Below, in pieces: positions 18,853 through 47,625 of a stretch of DNA of 64,000 nucleotides (position 1 is the first letter of the stretch; every line of letters starts with the position of its first letter). Both the position numbers and the translations under genes were made by a program. Below the pieces are notes generated by a model, which saw only the letters and a program-made list of their open reading frames with translations, was not told the DNA's origin and ran no database searches. Source of the stretch: Haloarcula salinisoli (GTDB taxonomy: Archaea; Halobacteriota; Halobacteria; Halobacteriales; Haloarculaceae); contig NZ_RKLQ01000002.1 in assembly GCF_019599405.1 (NCBI RefSeq), positions 620,001-684,000 of the forward strand, read 5' to 3'.

Positions 18853-19601
18853 CTGGGTCCGACACGGAGCCCGTGGTCGCCCTCGATTCGGTTACTTTCG
18901 GCTACACGGCCACGCCAGTCGTCGAAGATATCACACTGGAAATCGACGCGGGCGAGTACGTCGCCGTCGTCGGCCCGAACGGTTCGGGCAAGTCCACGCT
19001 CATGCGACTCGCGCTCGGCCTGCTCCAGCCCGACACCGGGACCGCCCGACTGTTCGGCGAATCCGCCAGCACGTTCGACGACGGCGACCGACTGGGCTAC
19101 GTCGCCCAGCACGCAAGCGCCGCGAAGTCGATGCCCATCACGGTCCGTGAGGTCGTCAAGATGGGCCGATTCCCCCACGTCGGTTTCGGCCGGCTCTCCG
19201 AGTCGGACTGGGCCATCGTCGACGATGCTATCGAGACAGTCGGGATGACGGCCTTGCGCGACCGGCGGGTGACACAGCTCTCGGGCGGGCAGCGCCAGCG
19301 GGCCTTCATCGCCCGGGCGCTGGCCGGCGAGGCCGACCTGCTGGTGCTGGACGAACCGACCGTCGGCGTCGACGTCGAGTCCGTTGCGGACTTCTACGAG
19401 CTGCTCTCGTCGTTGCACGCCGAGGGAATCACCGTCCTGCTCATAGAGCACGATCTCGGCGCCGTCACCGAACACGCCGAACGGGTCGTCTGTCTCAACC
19501 GCGAGGTCTACTTCGACGGCCCGACCGACGAGTTCGTCGCAGGCGATGCCCTGGGCCGTGCGTTCGGAACCGCGGCGAGCCTCATGGGAGACGACGGATG
19601 A
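18849..19601 (+). CDS. second metal ABC transporter ATPase
   Basis: This 250-residue ATPase has Walker A GPNGSGKST, signature LSGGQRQR and Walker B LLVLDEPT intact. It is closely related to the ATPase at 2883..3620. The ATG at 18849 overlaps the binding-protein stop by 4 bases, and the stop overlaps the permease start by ATGA. It drives the second metal importer. Confidence 0.9.
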   Translation: MTGSDTEPVVALDSVTFGYTATPVVEDITLEIDAGEYVAVVGPNGSGKSTLMRLALGLLQPDTGTARLFGESASTFDDGDRLGYVAQHASAAKSMPITVREVVKMGRFPHVGFGRLSESDWAIVDDAIETVGMTALRDRRVTQLSGGQRQRAFIARALAGEADLLVLDEPTVGVDVESVADFYELLSSLHAEGITVLLIEHDLGAVTEHAERVVCLNREVYFDGPTDEFVAGDALGRAFGTAASLMGDDG

Positions 19602-20629: not shown

Positions 20630-20686
20630 CGAACCGACAGCTTTCGCAACCGATATACACGGACTCACGGAATCCCGTGACAAGAC

Positions 20687-20745
20687 GGGCGATGGAGTCC
20701 GCCTGACCCAACCGCCCGGCCCCCCGTCGGGCTGATGACTCCTGT
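20687..20745 (+). ncRNA. fluoride riboswitch (crcB motif)
   Basis: The conserved parts of the fluoride aptamer are present in order: GGGCGATGGAGTCCGCC, then a hairpin GCCC...GGGC, then CTGATGACTCCT. GGAGTC pairs perfectly with the later GACTCC, as expected for the long-range helix. It ends about 11 bases before the ATG of the first CrcB gene, so fluoride binding probably opens or sequesters translation initiation or affects elongation. A possible TATA (GATATAC, about 20652) sits 30-35 bases before the aptamer, so transcription likely begins at its 5' edge. Confidence 0.88.
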
Positions 20746-20756
20746 CCACGTTCGCC

Positions 20757-21146
20757 ATGACAGAGTCACATCCACTGCTGACGGTCGAAACGGTCGTGTT
20801 GATAGGTATCGGCGGCTTCGCCGGCTCGAACCTGCGGTACTTCGTCGGATCGCTGCTTCCGGGGCTGGAGGGGACACTCCTGGTCAACGCCCTGGGCAGC
20901 TTCGCGCTTGGCTTCCTGCTGTACGAGGCGATGCATCTGGGGGTGCTCTCCGGGGAGACCAAGGTCGCCGCGGCCACCGGCTTCCTCTCCTCGTTTACCA
21001 CCTACAGCACGTTCGCCGTCGAGACCGCCCTGACGCCCGAATGGGCCGTGGCGAACGTCCTCGCCAGCTACGCGCTGGGCTTTAGCGGTGTGCTCTTGGC
21101 CCGCCAGGTCGTCGCCGTCTTCGAAGGCGGTGACCCGACGTGGTGA
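20757..21146 (+). CDS. crcB: fluoride exporter subunit CrcB/Fluc, first of two
   Basis: This 129-residue membrane protein has four predicted membrane segments and the family motifs GGFAGSNLRY, NALGSFALGF and GFLSSFTTYSTF. Fluc proteins form dimeric fluoride channels. The two genes here overlap and likely encode a heterodimer, as is common when crcB is duplicated in tandem. A fluoride riboswitch lies immediately upstream. Confidence 0.93.
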   Translation: MTESHPLLTVETVVLIGIGGFAGSNLRYFVGSLLPGLEGTLLVNALGSFALGFLLYEAMHLGVLSGETKVAAATGFLSSFTTYSTFAVETALTPEWAVANVLASYALGFSGVLLARQVVAVFEGGDPTW

Positions 21147-21505
21147 CTATCGAACCCGCCCACCTCGTGGGAACCGGCGGCGCCATCGGCGCCCTCTGCC
21201 GGCACTACCTCGGCTCGGCGGTCGACGTCGAGGGGTTCCCGCTGGGGACGCTCACGGTCAACATCGTCGGGAGCTTCGTCCTCGGGCTGGTCACGTTCGC
21301 GGGTCTCGGGAGCGACCTCCTGCTGTTCGTCGGCACCGGGGCCTGTGGTTCCTTTACGACGTTCTCCTCGTTCTCCTTTGACACCGTCCACCTGTGGGAG
21401 TCGGGTGACCGGCTGAAGGCGGGGCTCAACGCGACCGGAAATCTGGCCGGTGCGCTGGCGGCCATCGGGCTGGCGTGGGGCGTCGTCGCCGTGGCTGGCC
21501 TGTAG
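21140..21505 (+). CDS. crcB: fluoride exporter subunit CrcB/Fluc, second of two
   Basis: This 121-residue protein has four membrane segments. The motifs GGAIGALCRHYLG, NIVGSFVLGL and GACGSFTTFSSFSFD are typical of Fluc channels. The GTG at 21140, or the GTG one codon later, overlaps the end of the first crcB. It is co-regulated with its partner through the shared riboswitch. Confidence 0.93.
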   Translation: MVTIEPAHLVGTGGAIGALCRHYLGSAVDVEGFPLGTLTVNIVGSFVLGLVTFAGLGSDLLLFVGTGACGSFTTFSSFSFDTVHLWESGDRLKAGLNATGNLAGALAAIGLAWGVVAVAGL

Positions 21506-33121: not shown

Positions 33122-33496
33122 ATGGTCGAGGACGAAGACGAAGACCTCGAAATTGTCGTCGCCGCCAGGGTCACGACGCTCACCCTCGCCGTCGCCTTCG
33201 TGCTCATGTTCGCGGGCGTCCCCTGGTTCTGGGTGGCCTTCCCCGTCGGCTTCGGCGGGGTGCTCCCGACGGCGCTGGGCGCGACGCGGCTCTACCAGCG
33301 CCGACACCCCGCCGACAGCCGGCCAACGACCGACGAGGACGACGCGCTGGCGACGCTTCGGGAGCGCTACGCCCGTGGCGAGCTCACCGAGGCGGAGTTC
33401 GAGCGACAGGTCGAGCGGTTACTGGAGACGGAGGACGTCCGGACGGCTCGCGAGCGACCGTCTGGGGAAACTCAGCGGGAACGCGAGACGGAGTAG
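33122..33496 (+). CDS. SHOCT-domain membrane protein
   Basis: This 124-residue protein has two hydrophobic segments near residues 15-60 and a C-terminal SHOCT motif (LRERYARGELTEAEFERQVE). SHOCT segments are short oligomerisation helices attached to many proteins. Only 4 bases lie between its stop and a MITE insertion, beyond which a convergent gene ends. Confidence 0.78.
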   Translation: MVEDEDEDLEIVVAARVTTLTLAVAFVLMFAGVPWFWVAFPVGFGGVLPTALGATRLYQRRHPADSRPTTDEDDALATLRERYARGELTEAEFERQVERLLETEDVRTARERPSGETQRERETE

Positions 33497-33500
33497 CTCA

Positions 33501-33570
33501 TACTGGTGGCTGTAAGTTCGTAAAGATATTCGCGGTGGCGAATTACTTCAGTTTGTTACAGCCACCAGTA
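33501..33570. mobile_element. 70-bp MITE with TCA target duplication
   Basis: The element has 15-base perfect terminal inverted repeats TACTGGTGGCTGTAA...TTACAGCCACCAGTA and is flanked by TCA on both sides (33498..33500, 33571..33573). A second copy in opposite orientation lies at 47428..47506. No transposase is encoded, so it would need an enzyme supplied in trans. The right TCA doubles as the stop codon of the glycosyltransferase gene, so the insertion left that protein intact. Confidence 0.85.
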
Positions 33571-35352
33571 TCAGAACCCGCTCTCGTGGGGGGTCCTACA
33601 GGGCTCGCTGCGCTGCAGGACGAGCGTGTACTGGTTGGCCCGCAGCTCCTGCTCGTCGGCGAACTGGTCGGTCTGTGGGACGACGCCGTAGCGCAGCAGG
33701 TCCGTGTAGTCCCCGGGCGTCGCCCGCTGGGGGACGAACTCCGGCGGCCGCTCGCCGAACTCGGCGACGATTTCGTAGTCGGTCTCCTCCTCGACCAGCG
33801 CGCGGACGTACCGCTGCTGGCGCTCCCCGTTGCGGTAGTAGGTCCCGTTCTTCAGATAGAGGAGATCCCGATAGCCCAGCTGGATGTACTCGGGACACGG
33901 GTCCTGTGCCGTACGGTCCTGGAACCGGTGGTTGACGTTCATCCCGTGGGGTATCGCAGTGTCCTGTATGTTCACGCGGTACACCTCGACGGTGTCGTTC
34001 TCGTCGGCGTTTGCCGCCAGCCACGCCTCGGCGTCGTCCCGGGGCATCGAGGCGAACCCGACGGTCCCCATGCCGGCGTATATCGCCGTCGTCACCAGCA
34101 AGAGTGCCACTATCGGGCGGGCGACGGACGGATTCCACTCGCGCAGGTCCGAAAGCGCGTTCGCCAGCAACAGCGCCAGCAGCGGGAAGGTCGGCAGCAG
34201 GTGGTGGACCCGGAAGTCGTGCCACTGGGTGAACATCCCCACGTAGAGGACGAGCATGACGAGCACGAGGGCGATACCGGACCCACTCTCGCGCTGTTTC
34301 CGCAGTCCCGCGACGGACCCGACGACGCCGGCGACAGACGCGAAAAACAGCGGCAGCCCCATCCCGCTGAAGTAACCCCGGAGGAACCACCACGAAATGG
34401 GAGCGTCCGGCCCCGTCGGCCAGCTCACTCGTGAGGCCGACCCGCCGAAGAAACGTGTCACGATCTGGTCGAACCCGCCCACCATGAACGTCGGGAAGCC
34501 GACCAGTATCGTCACCAGACCGACCGCCGCGCCGGTGACGAGCAGTCGCGGCGCGAGCAATGTCCGCAGGGTATCTTCGTCGGTTTGCAGCGCCCGGAGG
34601 AGGTGTGCGACGCCGACCCCGAGGATGACCGGCGCGGCGGTGAGCTTGAACGCGATGGCGGCCCCGCCACAGGCCGCACCGACGTAGAAGGGGAGCCGCT
34701 CGCCGGTGCGGATGTAGACGTACAGGAAGTTGAGCGCCAGCAGGACGAAAAACAGCGCCGGCATATCCTCGCCACCCTCGTGGGCGATGGTGAGAAAGCC
34801 AAAGGTCAGCGTGAGAAGGGTCGCGGCCAGCCGGCCGGTCGCCCGGTCGACGACGGCGGTGCCCAGGCGGTAGGTCAGGTAGACCGAGCCGATGGCGAAG
34901 GCGACGTTGAAAAGCCGGACAAAGGCCAGGCTCCAGGTCCACACCCACTCGGGCGTGCTCGCCCACAGACCGTAGTAGCCAAACGCCGAGCTCGGGTAGC
35001 CAACCGACGTGAAGATATCCCCGCGGCCGGTCACCAGTGCGACGACGACGACCGGCAGCAGCGCCAGCGCGAACAGGTACAGCGTCGCGCCGAAGGGGAC
35101 ACGGCTCCACTGCACACCCGCCTGCAGCGATTCGATGCTCGGGTCGGCGAGCACCCGGCCGTAGGGGACCATCGCGTCTATCAGGCGGTCCTTCTCGTCC
35201 CGCGTCGCGAAGTTCGGGATGCGGTGGAAGAACCAGAAACTGGCCAGCAAGGTCGCAGCGACCATGATGTAGGGGAGGAACGGGTCGGCGCGGAAGTCCT
35301 CGCGGACCTGCGACCGCACCCGGTCGAACAGCGCTCGCCCGGGACCAAACAT
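33571..35352 (-). CDS. GT39/ArnT-like membrane glycosyltransferase
   Basis: This 593-residue protein has about eleven hydrophobic segments and an early loop IPNFATRDEKDR with paired acidic residues, as in the catalytic loop of GT-C enzymes (PMT/ArnT family). The C-terminal 130 residues form a soluble domain. Such enzymes transfer sugars from dolichyl phosphate donors outside the membrane and fit the glycan gene set next door. The ATG at 35352 gives a normal N-terminus. Its stop codon coincides with the MITE target duplication. Confidence 0.8.
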   Translation of the reverse strand: MFGPGRALFDRVRSQVREDFRADPFLPYIMVAATLLASFWFFHRIPNFATRDEKDRLIDAMVPYGRVLADPSIESLQAGVQWSRVPFGATLYLFALALLPVVVVALVTGRGDIFTSVGYPSSAFGYYGLWASTPEWVWTWSLAFVRLFNVAFAIGSVYLTYRLGTAVVDRATGRLAATLLTLTFGFLTIAHEGGEDMPALFFVLLALNFLYVYIRTGERLPFYVGAACGGAAIAFKLTAAPVILGVGVAHLLRALQTDEDTLRTLLAPRLLVTGAAVGLVTILVGFPTFMVGGFDQIVTRFFGGSASRVSWPTGPDAPISWWFLRGYFSGMGLPLFFASVAGVVGSVAGLRKQRESGSGIALVLVMLVLYVGMFTQWHDFRVHHLLPTFPLLALLLANALSDLREWNPSVARPIVALLLVTTAIYAGMGTVGFASMPRDDAEAWLAANADENDTVEVYRVNIQDTAIPHGMNVNHRFQDRTAQDPCPEYIQLGYRDLLYLKNGTYYRNGERQQRYVRALVEEETDYEIVAEFGERPPEFVPQRATPGDYTDLLRYGVVPQTDQFADEQELRANQYTLVLQRSEPCRTPHESGF

Positions 35353-35565
35353 ACCCCCACAAACCCCCAGGGACGACAAAAGTCGTCTGGTCTCGCGCGG
35401 GCGAGACCAGTGGCCGTCGCTGTGGTCGGTCCGTCCCACTCTGCTGCTTTCGGGTGCCTTACCACCGGGCTGCTCGGTTCGCTCTGTGGTCGTGTCTGTC
35501 TTCGACCAGTGGTTTATCTCAGACACAATCGGTAGTAATTTGTGGACAGTTCTTCACCATCTGAT

Positions 35566-36510
35566 ATGCATCAACTGACGCTACGACGCGGAGTGCTCGT
35601 CGTTGCAGTGGCACTGCTCATCGCAGTGGCCGGCTGTAGCGGCCCCTCCGGCGGCGCCACGCCGACAGCCAACGGAACCGAGAACGCCACAACGACGCCG
35701 GCCGCGAGTATGGATACGCCGACGCCGGCCGCGAGTACGGATACGCCGACCGACCAGCAGACGCCGACGGACGGCCCGGATACGGAGCCGGACAGTGATG
35801 TCGAAGCCAACGGCACCGGTGCCGACCTGGACGGCGAGGAACTGAACAACGCGACGAGAGCTGCCATCGAGGACGCTGGCTCTTACACGTACCAGACGAC
35901 CTTCCGCACAGCCAGCCAGTCACGGCGTGGCCAGTCGAGAAGCCGTACGAACACGACGACGCAGGTTGACCTCGAAGCCGAGGAGGGGCTTCGCGTCTCG
36001 AATTATTCGAGCACCGGCCAGCAGTCCAGTCAGACCTTCTCGTCGACAGTTTATACCGACGGCAACACGTCCTACCAGCAGCGAATCACGAGCGAGGGGA
36101 CGAACTACTCCACGCAGGAGGGCGCTTCCACCGGATTCGGTGGTATCACCCCCGTAAACACCAGTAATTTCTCACAGAACCTGACGTTCGTCACTGACGG
36201 ACTGGTCTGGGAAACGAACGGGACGACCACCCTCGACGGTGACACGGTGACGGAGTACACACTCGCCGGCGTCGAGGACGAGGACGCCTTCATCCAGAGG
36301 TTGAGGTTGAGAGGCACACTGACCGACATCAGCGGGACGCTATACGTCGACGACGACGACGTCGTTCGGCAGACCTCGCTCGCTTACACGGTAGAGAGCC
36401 AGTCAGGGAGCTTGTCGGCACAGTCCCGACTCACGCTGAGCGACATCGGTTCGACCACCGTCGAGGAGCCCGAGTGGACCTCGGAGGCCGAGGACGCCGA
36501 CTCGTCCTGA
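35566..36510 (+). CDS. secreted lipoprotein, DUF7537-like
   Basis: This 314-residue protein has a Sec-type lipoprotein signal (VAVALLIAVAGCSG), a Thr/Pro/Asp-rich spacer and a beta-rich domain with many N-x-S/T sequons, suggesting glycosylation. Haloarchaeal relatives in the DUF7537 group have no known function. The ATG at 35566 is chosen because it starts just before the signal peptide. Confidence 0.72.
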   Translation: MHQLTLRRGVLVVAVALLIAVAGCSGPSGGATPTANGTENATTTPAASMDTPTPAASTDTPTDQQTPTDGPDTEPDSDVEANGTGADLDGEELNNATRAAIEDAGSYTYQTTFRTASQSRRGQSRSRTNTTTQVDLEAEEGLRVSNYSSTGQQSSQTFSSTVYTDGNTSYQQRITSEGTNYSTQEGASTGFGGITPVNTSNFSQNLTFVTDGLVWETNGTTTLDGDTVTEYTLAGVEDEDAFIQRLRLRGTLTDISGTLYVDDDDVVRQTSLAYTVESQSGSLSAQSRLTLSDIGSTTVEEPEWTSEAEDADSS

Positions 36511-36926
36511 CACGGCCGTTCGCCGACTGTTTTCTCGACCCGACGCCGCTTGCTCACTGATCTTCCTTTTGTGTTGTAGTAGCCCGCCAGTCAGCGGTGC
36601 GCTCGTCACGGCGTCCCTGTCGCTCGCGGTGTTGTGAAATGGAAAACGTCCGGACGGAGTTCCACGCGAGCGAAGCGAGCGTGGAGCACGTCCGTACTGA
36701 ACGAAGTGAACGTCCGGACGGAGATTTGAACTCGTGAAGACGTTCCGGGTCGCTCACTACGTTCGCTCCCGGGCGTGCGACTTCTCTGCTCAAATCTCCG
36801 CGCGGAGTTTCCTGCAGCACGTACCGCTCGCTGTCGCTCGCGGTGTTGTGCTGCAGAGGAACGTCCGGACGGAGTTCCACGCGAGCGGTAGCGAGCGTGG
36901 AGCACGTCCGTACTGAACGAAGTGAA
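36511..36926. other. repeat-rich stretch downstream of tRNA-Arg
   Basis: No gene is seen. It holds two 120-base direct repeats (entered separately), several hairpins of the haloarchaeal GCGAGCGAAGCGAGCG type and inverted pieces of the tRNA 3' end. The tRNA-Arg gene lies beyond it on the minus strand. Confidence 0.6.
36615..36734. repeat. 120-bp direct repeat A containing a tRNA-Arg 3' end
   Basis: This copy includes TCGCTCGCGGTGTTGTG, a hairpin GAGCGAAGCGAGC and, at its end (36713..36734), 22 bases identical to the 3' end and T-arm of the tRNA-Arg gene. It matches 36829..36949 nearly base for base, except for short differences around 36637-36645 and the hairpin loop. Confidence 0.85.
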
Positions 36927-36949
36927 CGTCCGGACGGAGATTTGAACTC
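36829..36949. repeat. 121-bp direct repeat B overlapping tRNA-Arg
   Basis: This is the partner of 36615..36734 and runs into the real tRNA gene (36927..36999). The 94 bases between the two copies contain an inverted, degraded piece of the same tRNA end. This looks like a tandem duplication that includes the last 22 bases of the tRNA. Confidence 0.85.
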
Positions 36950-36999
36950 CGGTCCCTGGCTCCGCAAGCCAAGAGGATAGTCCACTACCCTACCCGGAC
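36927..36999 (-). tRNA. tRNA-Arg (anticodon GCG)
   Basis: Read on the minus strand, GTCCGGG at the 5' end pairs with TCCGGAC at the 3' end. The anticodon arm is TTGGC-TTGCGGA-GCCAG, with anticodon GCG reading CGC codons. The T-arm is CGGAG-TTCAAAT-CTCCG. CCA is not encoded. Its last 22 bases also appear in repeat A, 214 bases downstream in the tRNA direction. Confidence 0.92.
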
Positions 37000-37134
37000 T
37001 CATGTTGGAGGAGGGTGGTCGGTATGAAAAGGGTGACGGTTCGACCCCCACTACGCGAGGGGTGCCCACACCACGGTCAAAGCCGCGTTTGACCCACCGA
37101 AAAGCCCTTTCTTTCAGGGGGTCCATCACCGTGT

Positions 37135-37632
37135 ATGAAACGACGAACCCTCCTCGGAACCATCGGGACGACTGGTATCGCCGCGCTCACCGGCTGTCTC
37201 GCCGACGGTGGCGGCGACGGGACGCCAACCGACACTGGCACACCCAGCGACACGCCCACACCGATGCCGACACCGACCCCGTCGCTGACCGGCTCCGGGT
37301 TCGAGGTCGACTCCATACAGGGCGGCACAGAGACCGACAGTGCGACCGTCAGCGTCGACGGGACGGATATCGTCGTCGAGGGGACCATCTGGGGGTCCAA
37401 CGGCTGTCAGACCGCCGAACTCGGCAGCGTCAACTACAACAGCGACGCCGGCGAGCTGACGGTCCCCGTCAGGACGGTCGAGGATTCGGAAGCTGGTGAC
37501 GCTTGTACCACGGGAATCGTCGAGATCGAGTACACGGCGACGGTCAAGTTCGAGAACGGGACACCGGAGACTGTCGTCGTCACGCACGACCGCGGCGACG
37601 GGCCGGAGACGGTCGTGACCACCTCGCCGTAA
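37135..37632 (+). CDS. small secreted lipoprotein
   Basis: This 165-residue protein has a Tat-type lipoprotein signal (KRRTLLGTI, lipobox ALTGC), a low-complexity spacer rich in TPTP and a compact beta domain with two cysteines (NGCQTAE, GDACTTG) that could form a disulfide. No known domain is recognised. Similar lipoproteins are numerous in haloarchaea. Confidence 0.7.
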   Translation: MKRRTLLGTIGTTGIAALTGCLADGGGDGTPTDTGTPSDTPTPMPTPTPSLTGSGFEVDSIQGGTETDSATVSVDGTDIVVEGTIWGSNGCQTAELGSVNYNSDAGELTVPVRTVEDSEAGDACTTGIVEIEYTATVKFENGTPETVVVTHDRGDGPETVVTTSP

Positions 37633-37673
37633 CGACCGGACGTTTATATCCGATAGCGGGGCCACCCCGTCGT

Positions 37674-37763
37674 ATGGCGAGTTCGAGGACAGAATCGACA
37701 GACGGTAGCGGGTCGCTGTGGCAACGACAACGCTTAAGCGCGCCCCAGACCTGGCTCCCATAG
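37674..37763 (+). CDS. possible 29-residue leaderless ORF before the RPA gene
   Basis: An ATG lies about 28 bases after a good TATA element (GTTTATATCC, 37642..37651), and 29 codons follow to a stop 3 bases before the RPA gene. The promoter spacing fits leaderless expression. The peptide (MASSRTESTDGSG...) has no known domain, and this could simply be the start of the RPA transcript. Confidence 0.25.
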   Translation: MASSRTESTDGSGSLWQRQRLSAPQTWLP

Positions 37764-37766
37764 ATA

Positions 37767-39215
37767 ATGGGCGAGATAGCAGACATCTACGCGGACCTGG
37801 AGACCGACGTCTCCGAGGAGGAGTTCCGCGAGGCCGTCGAAGAGAAGGTCGAACAGATGGGTGGCCTCGCTGACGAGGAGACCGCGGCGATGTTGCTGGC
37901 CCACGAACTCAACGAGGGGGAAGTCGAGACCATCGCGGACATCGAACCGGGGATGGACGAGGTGAAGTTCATCGCGAAGGTGATGGCCATCGGCGACCTG
38001 AAGACCTTCGAACGCGAGGGCGAGGACGAGGACGGCCGCGTCATCAACGTCGAGGCCGCCGACGAGACCGCCAGCGTCCGGCTGGCCTTCTGGGACGGCC
38101 AGGCCGTCGACATCGACGACGGCATGCTCTCCGTGGGTGACGTGCTCCGCGTGAAAGGCCGGCCCAAGGACGGGTACAACGGCCTCGAAGTCTCCGTCGA
38201 CAAGGCCGAAGTAGACGACGACGCCTCCGTCGACGTGGAACCGGGCGACGGCTCGACCGTCGAGGCGCTGACGATGGGCCAGTCCGACGTGACCCTGCGC
38301 GGGCTGGTGCTGGACACCGACAGCGTCCGCACCTTCGACCGCGACGACGGCAGCGAGGGGAAGGTGTCGAATCTCACCCTGGGCGATGAGACCGGTCGCG
38401 TGCGCGTGACGATGTGGGACGACCGGGCCGACCGGGCGACCGAAATCGAGCCCGGCACCGCCGTCGAGGTGGTCGACGGCTACGTCCGCGAACGCGAGGG
38501 TTCGCTGGAGCTGCACGTCGGCGACGACGGGGCCGTCGACGAGATAGACGAGGCCGTCGACTTCCAGCCCGACGCCGACCCCATCGACGGCGTCGAGATA
38601 GAGCAGACCGTCGACATCGCCGGCGTCGTCCGCTCGGCCGACCCGGTCCGCACGTTCGACCGCGACGACGGCAGCGAGGGGCAGGTCCGGAACATCCGCA
38701 TCCAGGACGCCACCGGCGACATCCGCGTGGCGCTGTGGGGCGATAAGGCCGACAAGGACATCCAGCCCGGCGACGAGGTGCTGGCCGCCGACGTGGAGAT
38801 ACAGGACGGCTGGCAGGACGACCTCGAAGCCTCCGCGAGCTGGAACTCCACTATCGTCGTGCTGGACGACGGTGCAAGCCCCGCGCCCACGCCCGAGGAA
38901 CAGGCCGACGACCAGCACGCCGGACTGTCGTCGTTCGGTGACGGCGAGGACAGCGAGGCGAGCGCCACCGGTGGTGGCGAGTCGACGGCCACGGCCGACA
39001 CCGACGGCGGGGCGACGGCTGCGGGCGGTGGCGCCCAGACCGCCGAACAGGTCGAATTCACCGGGACTGTCGTCCAGACTGGCGACCCGGTCGTGCTGGA
39101 CGACGGCGAGCAGACGATGAGCGTCGAGACGGGCGAACGCGTCCAGTTAGGCCAGGAAGTCACCGTCCGCGGGGCCCTCGAGGACGGCCGACTGGACGCC
39201 GACGACGTTTTCTAA
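37767..39215 (+). CDS. RPA-like single-stranded DNA-binding protein
   Basis: This 482-residue protein has an N-terminal helical region, then three clear OB folds at about residues 65-145, 165-255 and 275-360, each with the pattern TF(D/E)R and VR(L/V)(A/T)(F/M)WD. A Gly/Ala/Ser linker and a fourth, shorter OB-like region end the protein. It should coat single-stranded DNA in replication and repair. OB folds 2 and 3 share a 36-base stretch with one mismatch (38325..38360, 38646..38681). No zinc finger is seen. Confidence 0.87.
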   Translation: MGEIADIYADLETDVSEEEFREAVEEKVEQMGGLADEETAAMLLAHELNEGEVETIADIEPGMDEVKFIAKVMAIGDLKTFEREGEDEDGRVINVEAADETASVRLAFWDGQAVDIDDGMLSVGDVLRVKGRPKDGYNGLEVSVDKAEVDDDASVDVEPGDGSTVEALTMGQSDVTLRGLVLDTDSVRTFDRDDGSEGKVSNLTLGDETGRVRVTMWDDRADRATEIEPGTAVEVVDGYVREREGSLELHVGDDGAVDEIDEAVDFQPDADPIDGVEIEQTVDIAGVVRSADPVRTFDRDDGSEGQVRNIRIQDATGDIRVALWGDKADKDIQPGDEVLAADVEIQDGWQDDLEASASWNSTIVVLDDGASPAPTPEEQADDQHAGLSSFGDGEDSEASATGGGESTATADTDGGATAAGGGAQTAEQVEFTGTVVQTGDPVVLDDGEQTMSVETGERVQLGQEVTVRGALEDGRLDADDVF

Positions 39216-39269
39216 CGACGAAACGACGCTACGGAAACTCTTAAGACCGCAACACTCCCGATTGTGGGT

Positions 39270-39707
39270 ATGAGCGTCGAGCTTCCGTTCGCGCCCGTCG
39301 ATGCGGTCATCCGACGGAACGCGGACGGGTTGCGGGTGAGCGCCGGCGCGGCAGAGGAACTGGCACGCCGCATCCAGGAACGGGGGGCTGAACTCGCCAC
39401 GACGGCCGCCGAGGAAGCGACGAGAGACGGCCGCAAGACGCTGATGCCGTCTGACTTCGGCGTCGAGACCATCCCCGACAAGGACGGTCTCGAGCTCCCG
39501 GTCGCGCCGGTCGACCGCATTGCCCGCCTCGACATCGACGACGACTACCGCGTCGCGATGGACGCGCGCGTGGCGCTGGCCACCATCCTCGAATCGTTCG
39601 CAGACGACGTCGCTGCCGCCGCCGCCGACCTCGCCCGCCACGCCGACCGGCGGACGGTCAAGGCAGCAGACGTCGAGACGTACTTCGAACTGGCCAAGTA
39701 CTACTGA
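39270..39707 (+). CDS. archaeal doublet histone
   Basis: This 145-residue protein consists of two histone folds in tandem: ELPFAPVDAVIRRNADG starts the first and ELPVAPVDRIARLDIDDDY the second, each with the expected RxTxxxxD-type end (DGRKTLMPSDF; DRRTVKAADV). Haloarchaeal histones are fused this way and are acidic. The deacetylase-like gene starts directly after its stop (TGAATG), so the two are co-transcribed. The ATG at 39270 is chosen over the GTG two codons earlier. Confidence 0.92.
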   Translation: MSVELPFAPVDAVIRRNADGLRVSAGAAEELARRIQERGAELATTAAEEATRDGRKTLMPSDFGVETIPDKDGLELPVAPVDRIARLDIDDDYRVAMDARVALATILESFADDVAAAAADLARHADRRTVKAADVETYFELAKYY

Positions 39708-40715
39708 ATGAACTTCGGCTACCGCGAGGTCTGTCTCGACCACGACACCGGCGAGCGCCACCCCGAGAGTCCCGACCGGCTCCGGGCGGTCCGACGCGCC
39801 CTGAAGGAGTGCCACGGCGTCGATTACGTCGCCGCCGACGATGCCGACCTCGATGTCGTCCGCGAGGTCCACGACGCCGATTACATCGAGGAGTTCCGCG
39901 AGTACTGCGACGACGGCGGCGGCCACTGGGACGCCGACACGGTCGCTGTCGAGGCGACCTGGGACGCCGCGCTAGCCTCGGCGGGGCTGGCCGTCTGGGC
40001 CGCCGAAGCGGCCGGTCCCGACGTTCGAGCCCGCCAGACTCCATTCGCGCTCGGTCGACCGCCGGGCCACCACGCCGTCGGCGACGACGCGATGGGCTTC
40101 TGTTTCATCAACAACGCCGGCGTCGCCGCCCAGGCCGCCCTGAACCAGGGGGCCGACAGCGTCGCCATCTTCGACTGGGACGTCCACCACGGCAACGGAA
40201 CACAGGACATCTTCTACGACCGGTCGGACGTCTTCTACGCCTCCATCCACGAGGACGGCCTCTTCCCCGGCACCGGCGATATCGACGAGACGGGCGTCGG
40301 GGCGGGCGAGGGCGCAAACGTCAACGTCGTCTACCAGCCCGGCGCCGACACCGCCGACTATCTGGCCGCCATCGACGAGGTCATCGCGCCCGAAATCGCC
40401 GACTACGACCCGGACCTCCTGCTGGTCAGTGCCGGCTTCGACGCCCACGAACACGACCCCATCTCGCGGATGCAGGTGAGTACGGAGGGATACGGCGTGA
40501 TGACCGAGCGGATGGTCGACCTGGCCGACGACTGCGACGCCGGCCTGGGCTTCGTGCTGGAGGGGGGCTATGGACTCGACACCCTCTCGGATTCCATCAA
40601 GATGGTCCACGAAGTATTCGACGGCTACCAGCCGGTCGCCCCCGACGATGACGTGAGCGAGGCGGCTCGCGAGGTACTCGACGAGGTCGTCGCTCAGGGA
40701 TTCGGCTCGAAGTAG
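39708..40715 (+). CDS. histone-deacetylase-family hydrolase
   Basis: This 335-residue arginase/deacetylase-fold enzyme carries the class II HDAC motifs RPPGHHA, GFCFINNAGVAAQ, FDWDVHHGNGTQ (zinc ligands Asp and His) and VSAGFDAHEHDP, with GGYGLD at the end. It could remove acetyl groups from lysines or from small amides such as acetylpolyamines. Being in an operon with a histone gene makes a protein target attractive, but this is inference. Its end overlaps the CCA-adding enzyme gene by 22 bases on the other strand. Confidence 0.9.
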   Translation: MNFGYREVCLDHDTGERHPESPDRLRAVRRALKECHGVDYVAADDADLDVVREVHDADYIEEFREYCDDGGGHWDADTVAVEATWDAALASAGLAVWAAEAAGPDVRARQTPFALGRPPGHHAVGDDAMGFCFINNAGVAAQAALNQGADSVAIFDWDVHHGNGTQDIFYDRSDVFYASIHEDGLFPGTGDIDETGVGAGEGANVNVVYQPGADTADYLAAIDEVIAPEIADYDPDLLLVSAGFDAHEHDPISRMQVSTEGYGVMTERMVDLADDCDAGLGFVLEGGYGLDTLSDSIKMVHEVFDGYQPVAPDDDVSEAAREVLDEVVAQGFGSK

Positions 40716-42091
40716 GTCGCCAGGTCGACGCCGAACGTGCCCGCGAGTGCTGCGATATCCGTCCCGACAAGTACCTCGTACCCCTCCTCCAGTGCCGATT
40801 CGACGTGTGGGCCCAGGCGCACGGACAGCAGCGCGTCGCTGTTCAGGAACGCCTCGGCCGTTCGGAACTCGCGGGGCCGCTCGACCACGTAGCGGTCGCC
40901 GTCGATATAGGGGCCCGCGACGTCGGGGTCGTCGGCGTAGGTTTCGTAGAATCCGGTGGCGTGCTCGCGCACGTGGACCGGCGGCCCCTCGTGGCGCTCG
41001 ACGGCCGGCCGCTCGGCGACGCTCAGTTCGACCAGCAGGACGGCTGTGTCGTCGTCGGTGGCGTGCGGGTCGCCGCTCCCGCCCGCACCATCTGTCGAAA
41101 GAGCCGTCGACCGGAACACCTCGAATCCGCGCCGGTCGAGTTCATCGGTCAGCCCCGACAGGGATTTCCGGAGCTGGGGCCAGAGCTGGTCCTCGACCAC
41201 GTCGGGCCTGGCAAAGCGCACGGCCACCGGCGTGGTCCCGCGGCGCTCGACGGCGGCGGTGACGGCCTCGGCGTCGTCGGCCGCGGGCTCGCTTGGCTCG
41301 AACAGCGACTCGCGCGGGTCGGCCAGGAGCGCCCGTGCGTAGTGTTGCAGGCGAGCGACGTTCGCGGCCGAACACACCGCCGCGACGTTGCGGTCGGGGT
41401 CCGTCGGGTCCACCACGACGAGGGGGTCGTCGAACTCGGTGGTGCCGTGGGCTTCGGGGTCGAACGTCACCGGTGGGTGCCAGTCGGCCGCCGCCGCGAC
41501 GAACTCGCGGAACCCGCCGAACTCCACCGTGAGCAGCTCCGTCAGATACCCCGAAAAGCCCCGCGTCCGGAGGTCGCTCCCGTAGACACCGATGCCCTTC
41601 AGGAACTGCTTGGTGACCCGCACCTCGCCCGCGAGGTCGTCGCCCAGCCGGGTGGCCAGATAGCGCGTGTGAAAGGGCGTCCGGTCGACAGCCGACTGGA
41701 TGGCCGTCGCGTCTTCGACGGCATAACACGGGACCAGGTCGACAGCGTAGCCGTCCACCTCCCCGACGACGTACGGGTGCTCGGCGTACTCCTCGTGGCC
41801 CTCGGGGAGGACGGCGTGACCCACCGCCAGTCCGTACCGCTCCAGCTCCGACCGGTCCAGGTCGGGCGGGAAGGCGACGAAGACGTCCACGTCGCGGTCC
41901 CCCGCGGTCCACGTCCCACGCGCTGTGGACCCGACCTGGAGCACCTCCGCGTCGACCGGGAGGTCCGCGACCGCCTCGCCGGCCCGCTCCATCACCGTCG
42001 CCGCGGCCCGCTGTAACCGCTCGCGCTCCGCCTCACCCGGCGAGACCCGCTTGCGGACCCGGGCAACGACGGCGTCGAACTCGTCACTCAT
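40694..42091 (-). CDS. cca: CCA tRNA nucleotidyltransferase (archaeal class I)
   Basis: This 465-residue enzyme adds or repairs the 3' CCA of tRNAs, needed here because the tRNA genes do not encode CCA. The head domain has GSTARGTW and RDVDVF as catalytic motifs. Middle regions PFHTRYL and VRVTKQFLKGIGVYGSDLRTRGFSG are typical of archaeal class I enzymes. Residues 335-346 hold a GAGGSGDPHATD insert also seen in the cyclase gene at 14291..14362. Confidence 0.92.
   Translation of the reverse strand: MSDEFDAVVARVRKRVSPGEAERERLQRAAATVMERAGEAVADLPVDAEVLQVGSTARGTWTAGDRDVDVFVAFPPDLDRSELERYGLAVGHAVLPEGHEEYAEHPYVVGEVDGYAVDLVPCYAVEDATAIQSAVDRTPFHTRYLATRLGDDLAGEVRVTKQFLKGIGVYGSDLRTRGFSGYLTELLTVEFGGFREFVAAAADWHPPVTFDPEAHGTTEFDDPLVVVDPTDPDRNVAAVCSAANVARLQHYARALLADPRESLFEPSEPAADDAEAVTAAVERRGTTPVAVRFARPDVVEDQLWPQLRKSLSGLTDELDRRGFEVFRSTALSTDGAGGSGDPHATDDDTAVLLVELSVAERPAVERHEGPPVHVREHATGFYETYADDPDVAGPYIDGDRYVVERPREFRTAEAFLNSDALLSVRLGPHVESALEEGYEVLVGTDIAALAGTFGVDLATYFEPNP
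41054..41089 (-). repeat. 36-bp GAGGSGDPHATD unit inside cca
   Basis: The unit shares its encoded 12 residues exactly with 14327..14362 and most of its bases. It sits in a surface region of the CCA-adding enzyme where no conserved motif occurs. The two host genes are otherwise unrelated. Confidence 0.7.
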
Positions 42092-42184
42092 TGCCCCAGG
42101 CTTCTTCGAGAGTGCGTGAAAGCGTGTCGATGGACGACCGAAGCGAAAGCCCTAATTACCAACTCGGATTACTGGCGAGTGCGA

Positions 42185-42257
42185 GCCGCCGTAGCTCAGT
42201 TGGTAGAGCACCTGGTTGTTACCCAGGTTGTCCCAGGTTCGAGCCCTGGCGGTGGCG
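42185..42257 (+). tRNA. tRNA-Asn (anticodon GTT)
   Basis: The acceptor stem is GCCGCCG paired with CGGTGGC. The anticodon arm is CCTGG-TTGTTAC-CCAGG with anticodon GTT, and the T-arm is CCAGG-TTCGAGC-CCTGG. CCA is not encoded. The 227 bases to the next tRNA contain GAGCGCAGCGAGTCG-type repeats and no gene. Confidence 0.93.
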
Positions 42258-42484
42258 TCTCTCCTCGTTCGCTATCCGACGAGCGCAGCGAGTCGGCAGC
42301 GAACGCTGTAGACGCGTTCAGAAGGGCTCGCGCCGACGAGTCACAGCCCGAACGTGGCGCGGCGCGACCAGCGGGAAGCGCCTCGATAGCGAGCGGTGTA
42401 ACCGCGAGCAGTCAGCGACCGTCTCGGCTCGCGGCGACACTGACCCGACAAGCTAAAGAGTCAGACCCAAGAATTGACGACTGA

Positions 42485-42590
42485 GGGCCCTTAGCTTAGT
42501 CTGGTTAAAGCGATCGGCTCATATCGCCTGTGGTGTCCGCCGTCGGCGTGGGACACCGATTGAGCGCTGGTTCAAATCCGGCAGGGCCCA
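42485..42590 (+). tRNA. elongator tRNA-Met (anticodon CAT) with intron
   Basis: The acceptor GGGCCCT pairs with AGGGCCC, and the anticodon arm reads ATCGG-CTCATA, then after an intron A-CCGAT. The intron at about 42524..42554 is at the canonical position after base 37 and would be cut by the archaeal splicing endonuclease. Haloarchaeal elongator tRNA-Met genes commonly have an intron. It is the left border of the accessory segment; its last 13 bases plus T recur at 49651..49664. Confidence 0.9.
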
Positions 42591-43034
42591 TGGGTACTCA
42601 TCCAAAATCTGCAGGGTTCTTAGCTAACTATTTATCGTATTTCTGCGGTTCTATACTCTGTTTTAGTATCTACTGGCACTGATACTGTCTACAGAGTCTG
42701 GGCTTGATGACCGCGAAACATTATCGTCGTGTTTTCGCTAGTCCGTACGCCTCACGTCACTTCGAATCTCGTCTGCATAGGATCGAGCGATGTGTGAGCG
42801 CTGCAATCAAACAATACAGACGTTGAAGTCGGCCGAAACGCTGCCCGTTCTCCAAATCGTGATTATGGCTTTGTGTAACACATCTTGCTGGCCAACCACA
42901 CGGACTCACAGTGTCCATCATATATCCGTTTCAGACCGTGTTACATCCCGGACCGAGCGGGTATACTGTTGGTCCAGGGAAAGCTGACACCCCAGTCAAC
43001 CGTAATCGGAGTATCTTGGTATAGCAGTACCAAC
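42591..43034. other. no gene recognised, AT-richer stretch after tRNA-Met
   Basis: The base composition drops relative to the core genes upstream, and no protein with a domain or promoter is visible. One short plus-strand frame (42790..42987) is rich in Cys, Thr and Ser, unlike local proteins, and is not believed. The stretch looks like the proximal end of acquired DNA. Confidence 0.5.
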
Positions 43035-43835
43035 TCAATCGCCTTCGGTTAGTGAGTCAACGTACTCTTTGAGCGTATCGTAGACGGTGTCGAACTCGGG
43101 GAGGTCGGCGACCAGGTCGGGAAGCGTATTCTGCCACCCATCCTGAATCTCCCCCCGTTTCTCTATAGGGAGCCCGTTCCGAATATCGATGTCCAGACCG
43201 TCGTGTTCACACTTTCGCGTGAACGCCGATGGAATACCAGTTCTGTCGACGTTTGTCTCAGTTAGCATCCGATAGATGTCGTAGTAGTCACGTGCCTGTG
43301 ATCGCTGGTAGAGTGCTCGCAACTTCTCTGCAAAAATCTCCTCAGGACTGTACGCGGTCAGTTCGAACTCCGTAACGTCCTCGTACTGGTGAGAGTGGCG
43401 AACTGAGTCAAACGCCACGTATTCGTCTATCATGATATCCAAACTCGTCGTGTTCTTGTGGGCAAGCACCGCGCTGTACTGGATGTCGATGTCGACGTAG
43501 TGCGTTGGATACCCCTCCGTCTGTAGCGCTCTGTGCTGAGTCACATCGAAATCGATACCAGAGATTCTACCGGCATCGTCCAGTGCGATCTCCAGTTCTT
43601 CCTCGCTCCCGTTGTACTCGCCATCGACACCGAAATCGAGATCTTCCGAGTAACGCCACGTCTCCGGGAAGTACAGTTTACTGAGTGCTGTGCCACCCTT
43701 GAACAGCAGATTATCACCGTACGGACTCGTGTAAATCGCCCACAGAATCCAGGAGTTGACGTAGTTCTTTTCGGCGTAGCCGAGGCGAACGTCCAGTTCC
43801 CTGGCCAGCTGTCGCAAGCGGGCTTCAGAAATCAT
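43035..43835 (-). CDS. AbiEii-type nucleotidyltransferase toxin
   Basis: This 266-residue protein matches the AbiEii/AbiGii toxin family. The active-site region reads FKGGTALSKLYFPETWRYSEDLDFG, with the GG-S motif and the SxDLDF acids. Family members transfer nucleotides, one known group to tRNA. It overlaps the antitoxin gene by 4 bases. Codon and GC use is less biased than in the core genes, consistent with acquisition. The pair may act as abortive phage defence, but that is not shown here. Confidence 0.85.
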   Translation of the reverse strand: MISEARLRQLARELDVRLGYAEKNYVNSWILWAIYTSPYGDNLLFKGGTALSKLYFPETWRYSEDLDFGVDGEYNGSEEELEIALDDAGRISGIDFDVTQHRALQTEGYPTHYVDIDIQYSAVLAHKNTTSLDIMIDEYVAFDSVRHSHQYEDVTEFELTAYSPEEIFAEKLRALYQRSQARDYYDIYRMLTETNVDRTGIPSAFTRKCEHDGLDIDIRNGLPIEKRGEIQDGWQNTLPDLVADLPEFDTVYDTLKEYVDSLTEGD

Positions 43836-44665
43836 GAGAGTTCGCTCGGCGTGATCGATTCGCGATCGACGTTCAGGCGAAGCTGATACTTGTTATCACG
43901 GGTTCCCGTTGCTTCCCTCGTCGGATCCAGCAGCGGATAGCCGGTCGTGAAACTCTCGACGAGGTCATCGTACTCCGGTAGCGCTATATCCAACTGATCG
44001 GCCAGATAGACGATCCGTTTCGTCGCAGCACCGTTTCCGAGCCGCCGCATGTAGTCGACGACTCGGTCCCACGAACATCGGGTGTCCACGGCGCTCTGCA
44101 TTGCTGTCGCGAGCTCGCTGATACCGCCACAGAACTCCGGATGGTCGGCACAGTCGACCAGCGTCTTTTCGATGCTCGCAACGTTCACCCGAGTCGAACC
44201 GGCTGCGGTCGGCTGGTAGCCGAAGAACTTCTGCTCGGTGACCGACACGGGCCGATACGTCACCCCGTGGATTTCCCGCTCTCGGGCGCGTTCTGTCGTC
44301 ACGATGTACACCGTCTGCGACAGTTGCTCTGTCAGGCCGTGGTGATTCATCGCACTCCAGTATCCGATGTACGCAGGCTCCACGAGGGCGGACGCGATCA
44401 CGAACTCGTGTGTCGTGTACACGGCGTCTTCGCCGGCAGCGAGCGGCACGATGAGATATTTCCCCTGTGCCAGCCGCTCGAGCCACCCCTTCTCCGAGAG
44501 TGCAAACGCCATATCCTTGGCTGCTGTCCGCGGGCTGTCGAGAACTGCCTCGATGTCACTGATGGTGATAATCTGTCGATTCTCGCTCGCCAGGCGTGAG
44601 AGCGCTCGAGATTCACGTGTCGACAGACTCTTTCTTTGAGTCCTATCGTCGTTTGTTGAGCCCAT
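43832..44665 (-). CDS. AbiEi-type antitoxin/repressor
   Basis: This 277-residue protein has an N-terminal winged helix (about residues 15-75, including IITISDIEAVL and GWLERLAQGKYLIVPL), followed by the AbiEi domain with YIGYWSAMNHHGLTEQ. In characterised AbiE systems this protein both represses the operon and neutralises the nucleotidyltransferase. Two direct repeats start directly upstream of its ATG and are likely operators. Confidence 0.82.
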   Translation of the reverse strand: MGSTNDDRTQRKSLSTRESRALSRLASENRQIITISDIEAVLDSPRTAAKDMAFALSEKGWLERLAQGKYLIVPLAAGEDAVYTTHEFVIASALVEPAYIGYWSAMNHHGLTEQLSQTVYIVTTERAREREIHGVTYRPVSVTEQKFFGYQPTAAGSTRVNVASIEKTLVDCADHPEFCGGISELATAMQSAVDTRCSWDRVVDYMRRLGNGAATKRIVYLADQLDIALPEYDDLVESFTTGYPLLDPTREATGTRDNKYQLRLNVDRESITPSELS

Positions 44666-44708
44666 AGCCGCTCAGCGTACATAGACTCTAAACCCAGTCG
44701 GAAATAAA
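44666..44708 (-). promoter_or_regulatory. AbiE operator, repeat 1
   Basis: This 43-base sequence directly abuts the abiEi start codon and matches 44749..44790 (both contain CATAGACTCTAAA and AGTCGGAAA). Each copy holds GACT-N8-AGTC, an inverted repeat. AbiEi proteins bind repeated operators of this kind. Confidence 0.55.
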
Positions 44709-44748
44709 GGTGTTTGTTGAGATCTCGATTGAAGAAAGTTGACTCCAA

Positions 44749-44790
44749 AGCCGCTCACACTACATAGACTCTAAATCTAGTCGGAAAGAG
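44749..44790 (-). promoter_or_regulatory. AbiE operator, repeat 2
   Basis: This is the second copy, 83 bases upstream of the first, with the same GACT-N8-AGTC core. Cooperative binding of the antitoxin to the two copies would fit the published mode of AbiEi. Confidence 0.5.
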
Positions 44791-44894
44791 TATGATTTGG
44801 CTCGAGGGTCACGAACGAGACTTCGAGTACGCTCTGAGCAGCGTCAAGACAACACTTTATAAGATATTACTGTTCCACATACAGTACACGCTAT

Positions 44895-47114
44895 ATGTCA
44901 CTGCTGTTCGAACACGCCGTGAGTCAGTTTTCACCGGACAGCGCGTCGCTCGTGGTGACGGACGCGAGCGCCCTCGACCCGACAGATAGCACGATTCCTG
45001 TCCGGCCCATCGCGGCGTTTGCCGGGCATCACGACTCGCTTTCCCATCCTGATCGGGACTGGGTCTGTATCCCCCTGCACGAACCCGATAGCGCAGTCCC
45101 GACCGACGCGTACGTCGCCTACACCGACCACGAAGTGCGCGGGGAGATTTTCCTGGTCGAACGGGACGGCGAGTACGAACCGGTCCCCGCTAAGGAGTTC
45201 GGCCGGACGGAACTGGCGACGCGTATTCGGTTCTGGCACTCCGATTACCTCCCGGACACGTACCCGCCCGGGTACGACTCCCCGCTCGACGACAAGGAAG
45301 ACCCACGGAACCCGGCCGACCCCGAGGGACTACTGGACGAGTTCGAGGCCTACGTGCGGGCGGAACGGGACGCGACGCGAGACGGGAACCGGGAACTCGC
45401 ACGGAACACGTCGGCCCGTGCGCTGTGTGCCCGGGGCGAGGCGGCGATTCCCTCGCTCTCGTGTCGCGGCCAGGACGACGGTATGTACAAATTCCGCGTC
45501 GACCTCGCCCAGTCACGTCAGGACAAGCGAAACGGACAGTGGGCGTACTTCGTCGAAAACGAGTTCGGTATCTACCAGGGCAACGAGGTGCTCCTGCACG
45601 GACACGAGGACGCGACGAATGACGCGTTTCCCATCCCTGCGACCGTCGACCGAATCCGCGGACTCACGCTGTGGCTCACCGTCGACTGGAGCAGCGTCGC
45701 CGAGTCAGCGGCCGTCGGAAGTACACTCAAAAACGGCGGCGAGTTCGGATTGTCGGCACTGTTGAACCCAGTTCCGTTCGACCGCGAACTGCACGCGATC
45801 GAGGCGCTCAGAACGGACTCGGCCAGGGAAATCCTCGCCGGCGAGCGCCCGGTGACGTTCTCGAACGAGGCGACCGCCCAGAGCGATCCCTTCGATACCG
45901 AGCTGAACCAGGAACAGCAACTCGCCGTCGACTACGCGCTACTTGCCGACGACCTGTTCTGTATCCACGGGCCGCCCGGAACCGGAAAGACCCGGACCCT
46001 CGTCGAGATCGTTCGCCGTGCCGTCGACGCCGGCGAAGACGTGCTCGTCTGTGCCGACTCGAACCAGGCCCTCGACAATCTCCTGCTCGGCGCCTCCACG
46101 TCGAACGACCTCGACGCGCAGTCACTGCACGCCCACGGCCAACACGGCGACGGCGAGTTCGTCCTCGACCGCGTCAACGCGAATCGGTCCCGGTCGTCGC
46201 TCGTCCGCCGGGGGTACGCCGATGTCGAGGACCGCGCCGACGTCGTGGCCGCGACGAACAGCAGCGCAGCCACCATCCCGCGTGACTTCGACCTCCTCGT
46301 CCTCGACGAGGCCACGCAGTCGACGTGTACAGCGTCGACCGTCCCGCTGGTTCGTGCCGACCGCGTCGTCCTGGCCGGCGACCACCGCCAGCTCCCGCCG
46401 TTCAGCGCCACCGAGGACCCACCCGAATCGAGTTACGGGCTCTCCCTGTTCGAGCACCTCTACGCCACTGGTGGTGTTTACGAGGGTGTCGGCCTCCAGC
46501 TCAAGACGCAGTACCGTATGCACCGTGACATCGCGTACTTCTGTAACCGCGAGTTCTACGACCGAACGCTCCGCAACGGGAGAACCGTCGACCCGCTTCC
46601 CGAGCGACCGGCCGTCGAGGGGTACAACGTCGGCGGGTCGGTCGACGTCGACGATCACTCCCGGGCCAACGAGACGGAGGCACGGCTCGTCGTTCACCTC
46701 GTCCAGGAGCTGCTCGATGAGGTTCCCGCAAGCGAGATCGGTGTCATCACACCGTACACTGCCCACGTACGCCTCGTCTCAGACCTGCTCGACGACCACG
46801 TCGCGGCGGCCGACGACATCACCGTCGACACCATCGATTCCTTCCAGGGCAGCGAGAAGACCGCGATACTCCTCTCGCTGGTCCGAAGCAACAGCGACGG
46901 CGAGATCGGCTTTCTCGGCCGGGATGTCGATGGTCCGCGACGACTCAACGTCGCACTCACACGGGCACAGCGATACTGCGCCGTCGTCGGTGACTTCCAT
47001 ACGCTCCGCTACGATGCGTCGGGTAAGTGTACCGAGCTGTACCAGGATTTCCACGACTACTTCGACACGACCGGTCGACTGAACCACGTCGACCCCGAGT
47101 TCATTCCCGTGTAA
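44895..47114 (+). CDS. UPF1/DNA2-like superfamily 1 helicase with novel N-terminus
   Basis: This 739-residue protein has SF1 helicase motifs: I, IHGPPGTGKTRT; II, LVLDEATQ; III, VVLAGDHRQLPP; IV/V, TQYRMHRDI and TIDSFQGSEK; VI, VALTRAQRY. The first 340 residues contain no domain I recognise and are the likely specificity module. The gene sits in the accessory segment between an AbiE pair and a TumE-like pair, so a defence role is possible. A TATA box (TTTATAAG, 44856) precedes the ATG by about 35 bases. Confidence 0.85.
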   Translation: MSLLFEHAVSQFSPDSASLVVTDASALDPTDSTIPVRPIAAFAGHHDSLSHPDRDWVCIPLHEPDSAVPTDAYVAYTDHEVRGEIFLVERDGEYEPVPAKEFGRTELATRIRFWHSDYLPDTYPPGYDSPLDDKEDPRNPADPEGLLDEFEAYVRAERDATRDGNRELARNTSARALCARGEAAIPSLSCRGQDDGMYKFRVDLAQSRQDKRNGQWAYFVENEFGIYQGNEVLLHGHEDATNDAFPIPATVDRIRGLTLWLTVDWSSVAESAAVGSTLKNGGEFGLSALLNPVPFDRELHAIEALRTDSAREILAGERPVTFSNEATAQSDPFDTELNQEQQLAVDYALLADDLFCIHGPPGTGKTRTLVEIVRRAVDAGEDVLVCADSNQALDNLLLGASTSNDLDAQSLHAHGQHGDGEFVLDRVNANRSRSSLVRRGYADVEDRADVVAATNSSAATIPRDFDLLVLDEATQSTCTASTVPLVRADRVVLAGDHRQLPPFSATEDPPESSYGLSLFEHLYATGGVYEGVGLQLKTQYRMHRDIAYFCNREFYDRTLRNGRTVDPLPERPAVEGYNVGGSVDVDDHSRANETEARLVVHLVQELLDEVPASEIGVITPYTAHVRLVSDLLDDHVAAADDITVDTIDSFQGSEKTAILLSLVRSNSDGEIGFLGRDVDGPRRLNVALTRAQRYCAVVGDFHTLRYDASGKCTELYQDFHDYFDTTGRLNHVDPEFIPV

Positions 47115-47147
47115 AAACGGAAGTTGTCCGCACCGAATATATTATTC

Positions 47148-47399
47148 ATGACGAAAGACGCACCGAAATCACCTGCCGAACCGCGAGACGGCGAACCGTA
47201 CTATATCGACGGTGAGTGCCCGGACTGTGGTACAGCTCTGGAGCTGTACGACTCGCTCAGTGTAGAGCAGATCGATGAATCCGCGGAACTCGGAGTCCCG
47301 GCCACCGATAGCGACGATGGGATCTGGCACGACGAGTGGGTCTGCCCCCGTTGCTTGGATGGTATCCATCTGGACGTGCCTGAAAACGCACTTGAATGA
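47148..47399 (+). CDS. small zinc-ribbon protein
   Basis: This 83-residue acidic protein has CPDCGTAL at about residues 24-31 and CPRCLDGI near residue 66, which together make a four-cysteine zinc site. It follows the helicase by 33 bases on the same strand and may be its partner. No family is recognised. The ATG at 47148 is preferred over the in-frame TTG upstream. Confidence 0.6.
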   Translation: MTKDAPKSPAEPRDGEPYYIDGECPDCGTALELYDSLSVEQIDESAELGVPATDSDDGIWHDEWVCPRCLDGIHLDVPENALE

Positions 47400-47427
47400 A
47401 CGCCTGATCACGTCGAACAACGGCTAA

Positions 47428-47506
47428 TACTGGTGGCTGTAACAAACTGAAGTAATTCGCCACCCCCGGAGTGGCGAATATCTTTACGAACTTACAGCCA
47501 CCAGTA
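47428..47506. mobile_element. 79-bp MITE with TAA target duplication
   Basis: The ends are the same 15-base inverted repeats TACTGGTGGCTGTAA as at 33501..33570, in opposite overall orientation, and TAA flanks it on both sides (47425..47427, 47507..47509). It has 9 more bases in the centre than the other copy, which complete an internal hairpin GCCACCCCCGGAGTGGC. The short copy probably lost them. Confidence 0.88.
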
Positions 47507-47625
47507 TAAGACACTCCTCACCGTCAATTCCCGACTTCCCCGAACGGCCCCTGAGACGTCCGCCTACAGCCCTGATATTTGAACAGAGACAAATTATTTG
47601 ACACAGCAGTGCATTAGTCAGCACG

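Follow-up and report, generated by a model that had tools for sequence, protein, structure and literature searches.

What are the two short hairpin-forming sequences at this locus, and why does one of them lie exactly on the stop codon of a gene? The window, the whole 64,000-nucleotide stretch of Haloarcula salinisoli DNA analysed here, carries two MITE copies in opposite orientations. Copy 1 (33501..33570, minus strand) is a 70-bp, hairpin-deleted form whose left arm reads CAAACTGAAG in that orientation, with the triplet TCA duplicated on its left (33498..33500) and right (33571..33573). Copy 2 (47428..47506, plus strand) is 79 bp long, retains its central hairpin and is flanked by TAA at 47425..47427 and 47507..47509. 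A sequence-only reading of the window had proposed these coordinates and flanks, and both are correct; the 15-bp inverted ends that it described, TACTGGTGGCTGTAA, are exact in both copies. At no other site in the window does an exact 15-bp inverted pair span 50-120 bp, and 30 Markov resamples of the window contain no such pair. The shorter copy does lack 9 bp of the hairpin that is intact in the longer one, as was also claimed, yet it represents a recurrent variant rather than unique damage, the 70-bp form being found in 8 of 120 rows.

The two copies occupy different positions relative to genes. The right-hand TCA of copy 1 is the minus-strand TGA stop of a gene for a PMT_2 (mannosyltransferase-like) membrane protein (33571..35352, minus strand), which ends exactly at the insertion. 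A convergent SHOCT domain gene (33122..33496, plus strand) approaches from the other side: its TAG stop (33494-33496) is followed by a single base and then by TCA-element-TCA, and with copy 1 removed the stops of the two genes lie one base apart. In L296, from a Haloarcula relative (G034), a different, longer hairpin-forming insertion is located between the same two genes. Copy 2 lies off any called stop codon; upstream of it, a small zinc-ribbon-like ORF (47148..47399, plus strand), which the codon-model gene finder does not call, terminates 25 bp short of the left duplication.

Several other features of the window were recorded. A fluoride riboswitch (Rfam RF01734, 50.8 bits; 20679-20751, plus strand) stands just before two tandem CrcB fluoride-channel genes (20757-21146 and 21140-21505). 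An AbiEii/AbiEi-type toxin-antitoxin pair (43035-44665, minus strand) adjoins a large AAA_11/AAA_12 helicase gene (44895-47114) near tRNA genes, and the region is possibly an integrated defence island. One tRNA of 106 nt (42485-42590, plus strand), found by Rfam and missed by ARAGORN, probably contains an intron.

Both window copies are members of a widespread MITE family in haloarchaea. A genome-wide count, suggested by the sequence-only reading, places the element at 21 positions in its own Haloarcula genome by BLAST, and the same method shows that 48 of 146 Haloarculaceae genomes contain it. Across the order, a second query detects it in 70 of 392 genomes, representing 25 of 95 genera. Some genomes contain the exact end pattern dozens of times, compared with 0-1 times for the reversed control. 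The elements are short, non-coding, multicopy and dispersed, mostly 70 or 77-79 bp long, and their 15-bp terminal inverted repeats are maintained with paired changes across the family. Phage records hold no match to the element, and among 43 pattern matches in viral contigs there is no TNA-flanked pair. Other Halobacteriales (L364-L443; one named record is Halovenus rubra, L404) carry a 108-bp subfamily and a 128-bp form, both of which have the ends and the TNA duplications of the family. Solitary 15-bp ends, with no second end, directly follow TGA at four places in the window's own genome (L280, L283, L285 and L286); they are either copies that have decayed or remnants that were retained after stop codons.

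The claim of true transposition, made earlier from the two target duplications, holds across the family, on the evidence of TNA duplications at more than 120 sites, a nested insertion, identical copies elsewhere and empty sites. The 3-bp TNA duplication is present at 88 clean-flank sites (TCA 39, TGA 37, TTA 8, TAA 4) and at 41 new ones, and because the central base varies yet matches on both sides, the triplet must have been copied. The nested case, in genome G001, is decisive. L241 (411-490) contains an intact, related 79-bp element with TACGGTCGGTTGTAA ends, and in L250 (16787-16947) the same element is interrupted by a 78-bp copy and a second TAA, the parts adding up exactly (79+78+3=160 bp). 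Identical 78-bp copies are found at different sites in G001 and G006. Three relatives (G023, G015 and G028), inspected for the empty sites that the sequence-only reading had recommended seeking, align through the copy 1 site without the element; the triplet has diverged in all three, so that they demonstrate the absence of the element and not the exact target. Tandem elements sharing one duplicated triplet (element-TCA-element) are seen in L265 (10698-10857) and L267 (13153-13314), as if a second copy had entered the target duplication of the first, and 219-bp tandem units sharing one triplet occur in L379, L381 and L390.

Insertion sites share the consensus C-TNA-G, the C being preceded preferentially by A. 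Each TNA triplet reads TGA or TAA on one strand, so that insertion at a gene end re-creates the stop codon without altering the protein. The sequence-only reading was right about the duplications themselves and overlooked how often the duplicated triplet serves as the stop codon of a gene. The gene calls come from a simple codon model for which the window was the training sequence, and stop counts are therefore approximate for distant genomes. Of 87 non-genic insertions in the Haloarculaceae, 41 coincide exactly with a called gene's stop codon; among non-genic TNA triplets of those loci the share is 5.6% (Fisher p=7e-26). A single insertion of the 88 lies within a called gene. When each triplet is weighted by its fit to the motif, with 464 kb of the window's own genome as background, the expectation rises to 16.2% and the excess persists (p=2e-11). 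With shared ancestral sites removed, 38 of 83 insertions are on stops, compared with a motif-weighted expectation of 12.5% in the same loci. The proportion reaches 20 of 28 in the window's own genome and G023 together. New sites from 14 genomes replicate the result, with 19 of 40 on stops (p=2e-14 unweighted, p=4e-6 against 16.2%). Haloarculaceae insertions are thus strongly concentrated on real stop codons. For the 108-bp relative in other Halobacteriales, 10 of 47 insertions are at stops, which exceeds the unweighted null of 4.6% and does not exceed the motif null, so that the excess over the motif is demonstrated for the Haloarculaceae only. What is new here is that roughly half of the insertions in Haloarcula and its relatives lie exactly on a stop codon, with the duplication restoring it. 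In the literature searched, which took in few subscription journals, neither this MITE family nor the insertion of a MITE at stop codons is described. The C-TRA-G context at stop codons is itself rarer in G001 (3 of 221 stops, L250-L269) than in the window's genome (44 of 280).

A concentration of this kind could also arise by survivorship alone, if insertion were random over C-TNA-G sites and only those copies persisted that preserve the gene product. The age of a copy is represented here by its identity to its nearest neighbour, and it is through this proxy that target choice is distinguished from selection. Older copies (identity <92%) are at stops in 15 of 21 cases and young ones (identity >=97%) in 16 of 45; copies on stop codons have lower nearest-neighbour identity (p=0.012). 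The higher proportion among older copies speaks for the loss of insertions elsewhere, and the near-absence of insertions within called genes agrees with survivorship. Against it, young copies are still above the motif null (p=0.001), and G001, the genome richest in near-identical copies, has 6 of 21 at stops where 4-6% is expected. Harmless intergenic C-TNA-G sites are moreover about five times as numerous as stop sites, as the motif-weighted null of 16% implies, and 15 insertions between divergent genes show that such positions are tolerated. Survivorship as the sole cause is therefore a credible explanation that we do not favour; judged from the sequences, target choice and the loss of harmful insertions probably both act.

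All 57 distinct 78-bp elements share one fold plan: the ends (1-15) pair with 64-78, followed by a symmetric unpaired segment (16-20), a weak stem (21-26), an A-A mismatch (27/52) and a central stem (28-38). Paired changes are found in the ends, at (6,73), (7,72), (12,67) and (15,64), and in the central stem, at (30,49), (31,48), (33,46), (35,44) and (37,42); subfamilies share changes by descent, so the independent covariation events are fewer than these positions. Mirrored positions pair in 79% of cases, compared with 33-44% when the register is slid by 1-3. Folding of the two window copies yields -35 to -44 kcal/mol, with z of -6 to -9.

A hairpin spanning the whole element, with conserved mismatched internal loops, is also what would be presented by a REP/RAYT-like or IS200/IS605-derived palindrome that a tyrosine (Y1) transposase moves in single-stranded form. 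Multicopy extragenic palindromes near gene 3' ends are likewise a shared feature of REP/BIME sequences. Y1 elements and REPs are not known to duplicate their target, whereas a 3-bp duplication is demonstrated here, and this origin is very unlikely. The published description of IS605-type elements likewise reports no target duplication (PMC3119063).

Among described haloarchaeal elements, the MITEs of Haloquadratum walsbyi are similar in being short, non-coding and multicopy, with terminal inverted repeats and target duplications; their ends match known transposons, and one of them is also reported without an intact matching transposase (PMC3119063). The present family differs in that no matching transposon was found, in its constant length of near 78 bp, and in its C-TNA-G target with a preference for stop codons in the Haloarculaceae. 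The A- and B-type SMRs of Haloquadratum resemble it in their prominent inverted ends, in a length of about 110 bp (SMR-A) and in having no known related transposon, but they are reported to make no target duplication, unlike the 3-bp TNA duplication seen here, and SMR-A are reported to attack other mobile elements (PMC3119063).

The Tourist-like MITEs (PIF/Harbinger) and the TNA-target subgroups of IS5 offer a further comparison. In these groups small, hairpin-forming elements are moved in trans and make a TNA-type 3-bp duplication, as here. Their ends are not known to begin with TACTG. PIF/Harbinger-like transposases (DDE_Tnp_4) were found in 0 of 10 genomes. For the IS1031-type members of IS5, DDE_Tnp_1 loci were read in the window's own genome and 12 MITE-rich genomes (up to 30 loci per search), and none carries these ends.

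The remaining alternative is that the copies are a conserved structural RNA or regulatory hairpin, such as a 3'-end element or terminator, as the strong hairpin, the covarying central stem and the frequent location just after stop codons could suggest; this is extremely unlikely, since the 3-bp duplications are direct and not inverted, one insertion is nested in another element, relatives have the copy 1 site empty, identical copies occupy unrelated loci, those at stops occur in both orientations relative to the genes (23 vs 16), and neither window copy matches an Rfam family, the comparison that the sequence-only reading had singled out. The element could be mobile and also useful to its host.

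Pfam scans of the window's called genes recognise no partner transposase, as had been stated from the sequence alone, yet the absence is wider than that statement implied and extends to all DNA searched. None of the samples contained an insertion sequence bearing these ends: besides the transposase domains above, a search for insertion-sequence-sized TIR pairs with TNA duplications yielded no partner in 1.7 Mb, and a MITE-excluding scan of genome contigs with the end pattern gave none among the matches listed. These searches cover incomplete collections and samples, in which absence is not proof. The apparent partners were separate MITEs, an insertion sequence inside a MITE, or chance pairs. 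In L157 an insertion sequence encoding a 458-aa transposase is itself inserted within a MITE; the L288 pair (18169-19488) is a chance pair without a transposase; the 1379-bp pair in L052 consists of two MITEs; and the half-element of L363 (G020) represents a decayed MITE.

Movement of the family can be envisaged as follows. A putative transposase, most likely of the DDE type, would use the matched inverted ends in trans to insert the element into C-TNA-G with a 3-bp stagger, which would produce the TNA duplication that is observed. At a gene end, the duplicated TNA would regenerate the stop codon and the protein would stay intact. The concentration on stop codons would most likely come from a target preference, visible in young copies, that is then enriched as copies in other places disappear sooner. 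From the complementarity along the element, end to end, and the covariation of its central hairpin, it seems that the folded strand or cruciform may have a role, either in transposition or in the mRNA tail. We consider this account as a whole, of MITEs mobilised in trans into C-TNA-G, with stops rebuilt and target preference followed by enrichment through loss, to be very probable.

Mobile elements must avoid killing their host, and the known safe-site strategies use a single site, as Tn7 does, or a loose avoidance of genes. A 3-bp TNA duplication on stop codons would be a simple and general solution to the same problem. Every affected gene acquires a strong hairpin immediately downstream of the stop codon, which provides a natural experiment for studying archaeal 3'-end effects, and the family points to a putative transposase recently active in several genera. 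That haloarchaea possess a transposition system with real specificity for gene ends, in which this putative transposase reads stop codons in their context, is a serious possibility that we advance tentatively. If it is true, the safe-site strategy would be open to nearly every gene and not confined to one attachment site.
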